From IMG/VR virus record IMGVR_UViG_3300030382_002593, positions 1 to 31,221 of that record: 31,221 nt of DNA; one strand, given 5' to 3'. Position 1 is the first letter of the stretch; every line of letters begins with the position of its first letter. The translations under genes were made by a program, and so were the position numbers. The DNA is from a virus. Below are positions 27,142 through 29,992 of the stretch, one piece after another. The notes beneath the pieces were generated by a model. The model was not told where the DNA came from. It ran no database searches and saw only the letters and a program-made list of their open reading frames with translations.

Positions 27142-27819
27142 TTATAACCTCATCCTATCTACAGTGATATCAGAATCACCCTCTATAGTTTTTCGAACTT
27201 TAACGGTTTTCCCTCCAATTGACCCCTGCAATTCATGATTGTCATAGACCTTTCCTTTCAGATTTTTAACCGTAGTGTGCAAGGGGCCCCTTGGCTCCAA
27301 TTGAATATTCCTGAAGCGAATATCGTGAGAAGTCATTCGTCCCGATACTAAATCGTTGACCCTATTGTCAATAGAATCAGCAAAACTTCGTATGACTGAC
27401 TTCATCTCTTTTTCCGCAACCTTTTTCACTTCCTTCTCTGGATTTCCACCGCCGATTGCTTCATCCATATATCCTTTTGCGGGTGATAATCCTTTTAATA
27501 CACTGCCAGTATTGATAAACCATTCCAAATCCACATGCATTAGAGTCATAGAAAATGGGATTCGTATTTCGCCCGATATTACCGTGGTGCGGTTATGTTC
27601 AAATCCGAACATGTAACCGTTTTCTTGTAATGCTTCTATAACCCTGTCGCAAGTCATAATAATCCCACAATTACAAATAACATTTCCCAAATAAGTAATC
27701 TGTCCTTTAGCATTTGAGAATACTTCGGTTTCTCGTATCTCCTCCAAAGTTCTCTTTTTAAATCTATCAGCTTCGGCTTGTGTTATCTCACCAGATTCAA
27801 CCAAATTTTCGTTTGCCAT
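27142..27819 (-). CDS. Hypothetical early protein behind a hammerhead ribozyme
   Basis: 225 aa from ATG at 27819, with AAACAAGGAGG eight bases upstream. An in-frame start at 27858 is rejected because that stretch is part of the ribozyme leader. Residues 1-40 are helical and charged. The middle has ICNCGIIMTCDRVIEALQENGYMFGFEHN, with three Cys in a short span. The C-terminal third is beta-rich and basic (KGKVYDNHELQGSIGGKTVKVRK). No family is recognised. Confidence 0.65.
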   Translation of the reverse strand: MANENLVESGEITQAEADRFKKRTLEEIRETEVFSNAKGQITYLGNVICNCGIIMTCDRVIEALQENGYMFGFEHNRTTVISGEIRIPFSMTLMHVDLEWFINTGSVLKGLSPAKGYMDEAIGGGNPEKEVKKVAEKEMKSVIRSFADSIDNRVNDLVSGRMTSHDIRFRNIQLEPRGPLHTTVKNLKGKVYDNHELQGSIGGKTVKVRKTIEGDSDITVDRMRL

Positions 27820-27850
27820 TTTAGTGGCCTCCTTGTTTACAATGGTGTCT

Positions 27851-27945
27851 GCCATCATCAGAGCGAGTAGACAATCTCTCGCTGACGCTCATCCGGTTTT
27901 TGACCGTAACCCTTGGGTTAAAGTTTGCATAATGAGCGTTTCGGC
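27851..27945 (-). ncRNA. Type II hammerhead ribozyme 1
   Basis: Minus-strand order: GCC, GAAA (27942-27939), stem III CGCTCAT/ATGAGCG, GTC cleavage triplet, stem I AGCGAG-10 nt-CTCGCT, CTGATGA (27861-27855), U, GGC. All invariant core bases of the hammerhead are present, A15.1 pairs with U16.1, and predicted cleavage falls between 27884 and 27883. Stem II is GCC/GGC with one bulged U. Stem III encloses two more hairpins (TAACCC/GGGTTA and CGGT/ACCG). It starts seven bases after the upstream stop and ends just before the ribosome binding site of the 225-aa gene. Confidence 0.88.
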
Positions 27946-27952
27946 TATCTCA

Positions 27953-28300
27953 TTATCTAACCCTCCAAAGGTTTCTTGTTTCATGGTTAGCGAAATAAAT
28001 TTCATTTGTTAATTGAACCGCCCAATCTTCTGCATATGTCCTAGAAAAGTCAGCTTTAAATGGGTCACATTCAGAGAGAATGTCACTGCTTGCAAGTATG
28101 GATAAGTAAGCATTATTGAGACTGTCAAATGCTTGCTCTGACATCATTCCGTTTTCGCCTGTTTTCATGTCAACCGTATTGACTATCAATTCCCACCCTA
28201 AGTTAATTACTGCTTTGTGGAATGGCGATAGGTTTTTGTTAGAGTTAACCATCTCAGCGATTCTCTTTATGTGATATAGGGCTTTAAAAATTTCATCCAT
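27953..28300 (-). CDS. Hypothetical early protein behind a hammerhead ribozyme
   Basis: 115 aa from ATG at 28300 (MDEIFKALYHIKRIAEM) with AACAAGGAG upstream. A longer in-frame version to 28393 would translate the ribozyme itself and is rejected. The sequence is helical throughout, with a Met-rich middle (MKTGENGMMSEQAF), no Cys pairs and no membrane segment. No family is recognised. Confidence 0.65.
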   Translation of the reverse strand: MDEIFKALYHIKRIAEMVNSNKNLSPFHKAVINLGWELIVNTVDMKTGENGMMSEQAFDSLNNAYLSILASSDILSECDPFKADFSRTYAEDWAVQLTNEIYFANHETRNLWRVR

Positions 28301-28328
28301 CTTAGTTCTCCTTGTTTGCGTGGTATCT

Positions 28329-28404
28329 GCCATCATCAGTATGGGTAGATTAAATCCCATAGACGGTGTAGTGAGTTCTTGAGTTCTTTCCACACCGTTT
28401 CGGC
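28329..28404 (-). ncRNA. Type II hammerhead ribozyme 2
   Basis: Minus-strand order: GCC, GAAA (28401-28398), stem III CGGTGTGG/CTACACCG (8 bp, one G-U) with an 18-base loop, GTC, stem I TATGGG-10 nt-CCCATA, CTGATGA (28339-28333), U, GGC. Predicted cleavage is between 28362 and 28361. All stems differ in sequence from ribozyme 1 while the core is identical, which is compensatory support. It abuts the stop of the upstream gene (TAAGCCGAAA), and the ribosome binding site follows within about 20 bases. Confidence 0.9.
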
Positions 28405-28839
28405 TTAATTCAAAGGAACCTTTCGGGCGAGAGCAATTAAATCAGCCAAATTTATATCAAATCTGTCCTCTTCAATTCGACCAGTTATGATGCGGACAAC
28501 AATTTCATTCATCCAAGGTGCATCAGGATTAATCTCGTTTCCAAAAGCGTTGTCCAGTTTACCTTTAGGATTAAAGACTTCTGCCATAACATCATTTTCA
28601 TCAGGTTCGTGCATATCATCTCGGCAACCTTCTGTAGCAGATAAGAGTCCTGTTAGCATCTCAGTCTCTCGTTCGTTAAGGGTAGGTTCGGAGACATCGA
28701 GGAAAGCTTCTAATGTTTGAATTGCATTATTGAAGCCCCGATTGAATTCGGTATAGGCTGTGTCTTTGGTAAAAACTTCGTGGTCTACTTTCAATACACG
28801 GATTAAGTGTTCAACTGTTGCTTTGTGTAGATTTGCCAT
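28405..28839 (-). CDS. Hypothetical early protein behind a hammerhead-like element
   Basis: 144 aa, ATG at 28839 with AACAAGGAGG ten bases upstream. The N-terminal half is helical (FNNAIQTLEAFLDVSEPTL) and the rest acidic (CRDDMHEPDENDVMAEVF), with a hydrophobic helix near the end (INLADLIALARKVPLN). No family is recognised. Its stop codon is directly joined to ribozyme 2. Confidence 0.65.
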   Translation of the reverse strand: MANLHKATVEHLIRVLKVDHEVFTKDTAYTEFNRGFNNAIQTLEAFLDVSEPTLNERETEMLTGLLSATEGCRDDMHEPDENDVMAEVFNPKGKLDNAFGNEINPDAPWMNEIVVRIITGRIEEDRFDINLADLIALARKVPLN

Positions 28840-28842
28840 TTT

Positions 28843-28877
28843 GGTACAATCCTCCTTGTTTGTTTTGTTTGTGTACC
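28843..28877 (-). promoter_or_regulatory. Hairpin with the ribosome binding site in its loop
   Basis: GGTACA (28877-28872) can pair with TGTACC (28848-28843). The 23-base loop contains AACAAACAAGGAGG, the ribosome binding site of the 144-aa gene, and the stem ends five bases from the ATG. It lies just after ribozyme 3, so it would be near the 5' end of the cleaved message. Confidence 0.45.
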
Positions 28878-28888
28878 GTTAGGGGTTT

Positions 28889-28982
28889 CCCTAGACAGCA
28901 GGGTCGGGTTTCGTGTAGTGCTTTTCTAATCCCCGACCTTGCCGTTTCGGAGGGATAACCAATCCCTCTCTCATCGGTAGGG
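28889..28982 (-). ncRNA. Type I hammerhead-like ribozyme 3, variant core
   Basis: Minus-strand order: stem I CCCTA, core CCGATGA (28977-28971), stem II G-(A)-GAGGGAT/ATCCCTC-C, GAAA (28948-28945), stem III of 14 bp (ACGGCAAGGTCGGG with CCCGACCCTGCTGT, one G-U and one A-C), GTC, stem I TAGGG. Predicted cleavage is between 28894 and 28893. The core has C where U4 is normally found (CCGAUGA for CUGAUGA); all other core positions match, including the G10.1-C11.1 pair. It begins right after the upstream stop codon. TAGGG can also pair with CCCTA just downstream. Confidence 0.72.
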
Positions 28983-29384
28983 TTATAATGCTAAGTCTGA
29001 ATATTTTTGTGAAATATATTCGTCATGGGCAAGATTCATATCCTCAACAGGAGTGAACATCCCACGTCTCATGGATGAAGCAACCCATTCATTTGCTCTC
29101 GCAAGAGCGTGCTTGGTTTTCTCATATCCTTTTAAGTTTGTATAACTTTCGAAATTCTCACAGCCCTCCATGCTGATGAATTTCACTCGCATTTTTTCTG
29201 TGATAACACAGTTGTAATTTGATGTGGCAAATCGTTTGATTGTGCCGTCTGCATGTCGTTCAATCCAAGAGATGTAATTGTCTGCGTGGAAAGTTGGGGT
29301 GAATTTCTGAGATGCGTGAATAATAATCTCGTCGCCAACCGATATTGTTGTTTCGTCAATTCCGAATTTTGCAAATGCTTTCAT
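28983..29384 (-). CDS. Hypothetical first early protein
   Basis: 133 aa, ATG at 29384 with AACAAGGAGAG upstream. The N-terminal half is beta-rich (KFGIDETTISVGDEIIIHASQ, FISMEGCENF), as in small single-domain early proteins, and the C-terminal half is helical. No family is recognised. It is the first gene after the long leader and promoter region and is therefore probably among the first expressed. Confidence 0.65.
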   Translation of the reverse strand: MKAFAKFGIDETTISVGDEIIIHASQKFTPTFHADNYISWIERHADGTIKRFATSNYNCVITEKMRVKFISMEGCENFESYTNLKGYEKTKHALARANEWVASSMRRGMFTPVEDMNLAHDEYISQKYSDLAL

Positions 29385-29407: not shown

Positions 29408-29473
29408 TTTATCATCAGACCGTCAGTTGCCAACTTTGCGGTTAGCGGACTTCGGCTTTGCTGTCCGCTTTCA
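29408..29473 (-). ncRNA. Type II hammerhead-like ribozyme 4
   Basis: Minus-strand order: TT, GAAA (29471-29468), stem III GCGGAC-12 nt-GTCCGC, CTA cleavage triplet, stem I ACCG...CGGT with an inner AGTT/AACT hairpin, CTGATGA (29417-29411), U, AA. Core and triplet are correct (H17 is A), with predicted cleavage between 29442 and 29441. Stem II is only UU/AA with the same bulged U as ribozymes 1 and 2, so it would need tertiary help or may be slow. It lies just before the ribosome binding site of the 133-aa gene. Confidence 0.65.
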
Positions 29474-29820
29474 ATATTTCATATATCTAATAAATAACTC
29501 CTTAGTGTTTGTAATCAATTTTTTTTAATCCGAGACCCTTGCCTACTTCTCCCTCTGTCTCAGTCTGTCTTTGACCAAAAATGAATTTGGAATCAGACCT
29601 TTCCGCCAGAGTTTGTTTTAGCCGCCTGTACTTCATGAGAATCGTGTTAACTCATGAAGTGTCTTACCGGTCTATTAACTCGGTGTGGGACACCTCTCTT
29701 ACGTGGGAAGTCCCTTTGGTTTTCATCTATCCCTCCGCCGCTGTTGCAGGAGAGGGGGATGGTTCTGGTCGGTTACCGTTGATTGCGGTCAAGTATGTTA
29801 TCAATTACCAGTACCTGTGA
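29474..29820 (-). other. Structured untranslated leader of the early operon
   Basis: No credible gene was found between the promoter and the first early gene. Transcribed hairpins include ACTTCATGAG/CTCATGAAGT (29631-29661, perfect 10 bp), GGTGT/ACACC (29681-29693) and a GC-rich fold (ATCCCCCTCTCC with GGAGGGAT, 29729-29760). A 20-codon frame (start near 29726) and a 40-codon frame (29514-29636) exist but lack convincing coding character. The leader may regulate early expression or hold a small RNA. The further stretch 29850-29992 shows only a small hairpin (AGCAGA/TCTGCT). Confidence 0.45.
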
Positions 29821-29849
29821 AGTATCTCTGGTTCTCTTTACCTTGTCAA
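29821..29849 (-). promoter_or_regulatory. Candidate sigma70-type promoter of the early operon
   Basis: On the minus strand TTGACA (29849-29844) is followed after 17 bases by GATACT (29826-29821). The -35 box is perfect, the -10 box matches TATAAT at four of six positions and the spacing is ideal. It lies downstream of the terminator at 29993-30042 and upstream of all early genes. Confidence 0.55.
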
Positions 29850-29992
29850 GAGGTTTTGTAGGCACTAACAAAAGTAATCCTTCAGCAGAATTTTCTCTGC
29901 TAGGTACTAGACGTGAAATATTGGTTAAAAATGGGTCTGCCGAAGCCGATATTTACTGTGAGGAATTGAAACAAACGGTATTTTTAAGGGGT

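Follow-up and report, generated by a model that had tools for sequence, protein, structure and literature searches.

Arrays of hammerhead ribozymes in phages have been published since 2011 (Perreault et al. 2011, PMC3088659). Pairing between loop I and the 3' tail, which forms a pseudoknot, is a known feature of the type II hammerheads described there and occurs in most, not all, of them. The role of hammerheads in prokaryotes and phages is stated as an open question (PMC6155905). Here we analyse a single virus record of 31,221 bases (the window), in which an element, E1, shares its core, permutation, pseudoknot and short stem II with the type II hammerheads of bacteria and prophages (RF02276, PMC3088659). 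As with hammerheads in PMC3088659, those of the window form an array that flanks small phage genes. The coordinates of the features are given in Table 1.

Anatomy and placement of E1

E1 scores 40.9 bits with the Rfam model Hammerhead_II (RF02276), for which the gathering score is 37, and the alignment covers model positions 1–66, the full model. RNAfold predicts all three expected stems, I, II, and III, at −32.6 kcal/mol (z −2.76; 2 of 200 shuffles are equally stable). The element reads, in order, GCC (stem II), GAAA, a 53-nt stem III, GUC, a 22-nt stem I hairpin, CUGAUGA, U, GGC (stem II), and AGACACCA. By descriptor the core is complete, with CUGANGA, GAAA, the A15.1–U16.1 pair, and a UH cleavage doublet (GUC). 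Rfam, RNAfold, and the descriptor agree that loops close stems I and III and that stem II is open, which is the type II topology. The preliminary description is therefore borne out as to the type II hammerhead and its enlarged, structured stem III.

Table 1 Features of the E1 locus and its neighbours (window positions).
Feature	Position	Strand	Basis or remark
E1, type II hammerhead ribozyme, full element	27843..27946	-	Rfam RF02276 and descriptor
E1 pseudoknot strand AGACA, partner of loop I UGUCU	27846..27850	-	5 Watson-Crick pairs
E1 stem I hairpin; loop UGUCU (27869-27873) pairs with 3' tail	27862..27883	-	fold and pairing count
E1 predicted cleavage site, after GUC, C17 at 27884	27883..27884	-	position computed; chemistry from known family
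E1 stem III with insert, 53 nt	27886..27938	-	descriptor, fold
Insert hairpin 2, CGGU CAAAA ACCG (CGGUCAAAAACCG)	27894..27906	-	fold
Insert hairpin 1, UUUAACCC AA GGGUUA (UUUAACCCAAGGGUUA)	27907..27922	-	fold
Possible alternative hairpin, 3' strand: stem III 5' strand and insert hairpin 1	27908..27936	-	RNAfold
Possible alternative hairpin, 5' strand: upstream gene end and stop codon, ~25 nt	27949..27973	-	RNAfold
Downstream gene, 225 aa, no known family	27142..27819	-	gene call
Leader AAACAAGGAG with Shine-Dalgarno of downstream gene	27829..27838	-	lowest of four hammerhead gaps
Upstream gene, 113 aa, no known family	27953..28294	-	gene call; stop codon 27953-27955
E2, type II hammerhead	28321..28405	-	Rfam 31.2 bits, below cut-off; descriptor
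UAGGGAAACCCCUA, putative 5' hairpin of cleaved downstream RNA at E3	28880..28893	-	fold
E3, candidate type I hammerhead, core CCGAUGA (U4C)	28889..28982	-	descriptor only
E4, candidate type II hammerhead, UA cleavage doublet (CUA), 2-bp stem II	29409..29474	-	descriptor only

For comparison, we compile a census of phage elements. Its loci are nearly all chosen by patterns with CTGATGATGGC and comprise the matches listed only, so it is no random sample and does not give the true frequency of long stems III. Five loci are set aside beforehand (L001 and L002, which are the window, and L034, L042, and L043), and removal of four of 232 elements with a stem II under 3 bp leaves 228, in which at least two apparent false positives, L019 (77 nt) and L152, are retained. 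Ten of the 228 with less than 300 nt upstream are left out of the first stop-codon count, and 14 with less than 400 nt out of the second. Loop I and the tail can form at least 4 bp in 64.9% of the 228 elements among the matches listed, as compared with 27.5% when tails are swapped.

Relatives of the phage are reached by a DUF932 search, which returns L034, and by an alignment of the AAA protein, which returns L042 (on the same contig as L034) and L043. L034 is part of a longer contig, and the part covered holds no hammerhead by Rfam or descriptor. The same is true by Rfam of L043, also part of a longer contig, for which the motif listing covers CTGANGA and TCGTC in the first 8000 bases of the given strand. 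In the stretches searched, these relatives thus offer no hammerhead in which to look for the insert of E1. The AAA alignment finds no match in bacterial genomes, and a search of named phages finds no DNA match to the window.

All identified phage genes of the window lie on the minus strand, and E1 fills the gap between two small ones, from the stop codon of the first to the ribosome-binding site of the second. It starts 6 nt past the upstream stop codon, which places its GAAA 10 nt past the stop. In E2, stem II is abutted directly by the upstream stop codon and GAAA lies 3 nt past it. Such placement is frequent among the matches listed. In the wider count of stop distances (n = 218), 159 elements have a stop within 12 nt, 24 at 13–50 nt, and eight farther away, and 27 have none. 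GAAA follows the stop of an open reading frame of at least 40 codons by 2–8 nt in 150 of 214 phage type II elements among the matches listed; the same count at seven shifted positions gives 2–19 of 214. A terminating ribosome, of the size generally given, would extend over stem II and into the core, since the stop codon lies 2–8 nt before GAAA. However, start codons are also close; counted from 6 nt beyond the core, their median distance is 22 nt (222 of 228 elements among the matches listed), so genome compactness is a simpler reading of the placement. Among the titles and abstract openings found, a scope that leaves subscription papers and most preprints outside, none reports this placement, and the words "stop codon" do not occur in the main text of PMC3088659.

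We consider it quite likely that E1, which sits between two small genes, is an ordinary type II hammerhead of phages and cuts a multi-gene transcript. Self-cleavage is predicted, its position from the fold and its chemistry by analogy with the known family. The phage transcript would be cut after GUC, between the two genes. Of the two products, the upstream mRNA would keep the stop codon of its gene and end in the stem III hairpin at its 3' terminus; the downstream mRNA would begin with the stem I hairpin, followed by its ribosome-binding site. The best reading is that phage transcripts are processed to gene-size mRNAs, as published, and that, as we infer, a hairpin on both new ends may protect them. 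The enlarged stem III would be a peripheral insert, tolerated because stem III points away from the contact between stem I and stem II, and would act at most as a bigger 3' cap.

The stem III insert and a possible alternative hairpin

The preliminary description proposed that the insert, with its two hairpins, could be a sensor or a protein-binding site that controls cleavage. The two hairpins are indeed predicted, but they have no special stability; folded by itself, the insert gives z −0.94, and 33 of 200 shuffles are equally stable, which is no better than shuffled sequence. No other Rfam family lies within the insert, which thus shows no conserved ligand-binding domain of the kind expected of a riboswitch or an allosteric ribozyme. 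A search of virus contigs with the insert finds no relative of it in any other hammerhead. A 20-base piece has an exact match in one other virus contig only (L153, 4045–4064), in a coding-type region that has no hammerhead and no further likeness to the window. If the collection amounts to ~6e10 bases, our own estimate, chance alone would give about 0.1 such match, so this match is probably a coincidence.

A search for type II elements with a long stem III returns eight virus contigs. By descriptor, stem III measures 46–69 nt in six of them (L009, L035, L036, L037, L040, and L041) and is short in L038 and L039, despite their return in this search; L031 (38 nt) and L110 (54 nt) add further long stems III. 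By eye, the long inserts of the other phage hammerheads do not resemble that of E1. Since other phage contigs carry inserts of the same size and unrelated sequence, a long stem III appears to be a recurrent peripheral variation among phage hammerheads, not unique to E1. With unremarkable stability, a 20-base piece found only in an unrelated gene, and unrelated inserts elsewhere, the proposal of a sensor or protein-binding site does not hold up, and we regard such a role as very unlikely.

One point stands against the hammerhead in its context: with the pseudoknot left out of account, as it is in RNAfold, a different fold is preferred. The minimum-energy fold of positions 27815–27990, and of a shorter context, contains a 24-bp hairpin between the end of the upstream gene and the stem III 5' strand with insert hairpin 1. 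In the 176-nt context this hairpin has a probability of 0.85 and stem III one of 0.15. The hairpin might make the insert an anti-ribozyme strand, with half of stem III masked by pairing with the upstream gene end and the stop codon in it. On arrival at this codon a ribosome would open the hairpin; once it had left, the hammerhead would form, and the cut would follow translation of the upstream gene. Consistent with such gating, the alternative fold (−42.8 kcal/mol) is more stable than the forced hammerhead without pseudoknot (−41.9 kcal/mol, 0.9 weaker), and in folds of growing prefixes the alternative hairpin forms first and keeps a probability of 0.999 until most of the stem III 3' strand has been made. 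The complementarity (−24.1 kcal/mol) is matched, for four flank lengths, by 1, 0, 2, and 1 of 1000 upstream shuffles and by 8, 14, 18, and 14 of 1000 insert shuffles, figures that overstate the case because the hairpin was found after looking at folds.

However, the pseudoknot helix, at about −3.7 kcal/mol, would favour the ribozyme. The probability of stem III rises to 0.62 with 50 nt of upstream sequence and a shorter tail, and in a partition-function test 6 of 300 upstream shuffles pair equally well. A shuffle p of at most 0.01 is reached by just two of 227 other phage elements among the matches listed; of the 16 other elements with a long stem III among these, only L009 (0.04) falls below 0.17. 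E2 and E4 have no such pairing. Searches of viral contigs find no homologue of the gene before E1 or of the gene after it, and no homologous locus by which conservation could be judged. Translation gating of E1 is therefore unlikely.

The same imperfect complementarity could have a different origin. The insert may be an inverted copy of the upstream gene end, a quasi-palindrome left by template switching, with no role of its own. No conserved insert is seen in other phages, which fits this origin, but the pairing contains several gaps and G–U pairs, and the searches gave no relative of the locus in which stem III is short. We hold this to be possible, if doubtful. It concerns the origin of the insert and is compatible with E1 as an ordinary hammerhead.

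Were gating true, E1 would be a natural hammerhead controlled by translation of the preceding gene, and a looser version of this coupling could be general among phage type II hammerheads, which often abut upstream stop codons. Whether cleavage by phage ribozymes is tied to translation could be tested directly in two ways, through the placement at stop codons and through the bistable fold of E1. If cleavage is not tied to translation, E1 would still illustrate the freedom of stem III to accept inserts. Translation-coupled attenuators would be a parallel, both systems having two mutually exclusive hairpins of which one overlaps the end of a coding region. However, the output of attenuators is termination, whereas that of E1 would be self-cleavage, and E1 is a single case.

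As a separate matter, pairing between the upstream flank and stem III was considered as a class-wide feature and rejected; its distribution over 227 elements among the matches listed is near flat, with no excess of runs of at least 6.

Neighbouring elements, core variant, and shared leader

The next three gene gaps upstream of E1 hold E2 and then two weaker candidates, E3 and E4. By descriptor, the core of E2 is complete (GUC doublet), and a form with stems I and III closed is supported. The descriptor also reads the type II core motifs in E4, with CUA at the cleavage doublet, whereas E3 departs from them at one position. E3 and E4 have no Rfam match in the search of the window. Loop I and the tail can form 4 bp in E2 (AUCU:AGAU) and 4 bp in E4, but the pseudoknot evidence for both is weak, as swapped pairs reach 4 bp at the rate given above. 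The minimum-energy fold of E3 lacks the hammerhead (−44.2 versus −39.4 kcal/mol with stem I forced). Cleaved RNA at E3, a type I candidate, would lack a stem I hairpin; the next bases, UAGGGAAACCCCUA, could form one, which would fit the idea of end hairpins. The descriptor finds three type II elements in the window, whereas a shuffled window holds on average 0.03 elements of type II and 0.04 of type I, so the window's elements are unlikely to be there by chance; E3 and E4 remain candidates. Among the matches listed, 43 of 132 loci have more than one distinct element.

Two stretches of the minus strand are recorded here as observations in their own right. Positions 28860–28986, the E3 region, fold very well (z −4.82) into a junction that UACCG/CGGUA closes and that is incompatible with the hammerhead core. 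Positions 29500–29985, about 480 nt with no convincing minus-strand gene and no Rfam match, have a strong predicted fold (z −3.48) and are a possible structured RNA.

The core of E3 has C in place of U at position 4. In the loci analysed, among the matches listed, seven type II matches (five distinct sequences) have CCGANGA, as compared with 215 with CUGANGA and none with CAGANGA or CGGANGA; the type I matches are four with CUGANGA and none with CCGANGA, CAGANGA, or CGGANGA. Type II hammerheads with CCGAUGA that are otherwise complete occur in L067, L089 (identical in L128 and L130), L100, L108, and L138. As judged from sequence, this points to U4C as a natural, perhaps working, variant of type II, and would support E3 only indirectly. 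Section 8 of PMC3088659 describes natural hammerheads that, like E3, have one otherwise conserved core position changed; C at position 4 is not named in that section.

The preliminary description also held that E1 or E2 probably arose by duplication, on the ground that their 3' flanks are nearly identical. The letters are nearly identical, but they are mainly core (CUGAUGA), stem II (GGC), and pseudoknot strand (AGA..), all features of the family. They are no proof of duplication, because 31 other virus contigs have CTGATGATGGCAGA at the same place (the search itself required those letters). UGGCAG directly follows the core in 113 of 228 elements among the matches listed, from searches that favoured UGGC. 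Past the shared letters, the flanks of E1 and E2 score higher than 98.9% of 25,423 between-locus pairs among the matches listed, part of which is due to the leader AAACAAGGAG. This leader has seven sites on the coding (minus) strand and none on the other, is present in all four hammerhead gaps, and has three further sites outside them. The stem I hairpins of E1 and E2 agree at 10 of their 22 positions, hardly more than unrelated pairs among the matches listed, which agree at 9.2 on average. A common origin of E1 and E2 is possible.

Comparison with described type II hammerheads

E1 differs from the type II hammerheads described in PMC3088659 in its 53-nt stem III with two inner hairpins, which is unusual, yet long stems III are present in other phages too. 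A further difference is that E1 may form an alternative hairpin with the upstream gene. What is new here is the predicted ability of the E1 insert and the stem III 5' strand to pair with the upstream gene end, stop codon included, and perhaps thereby to form a switch, in this single case.
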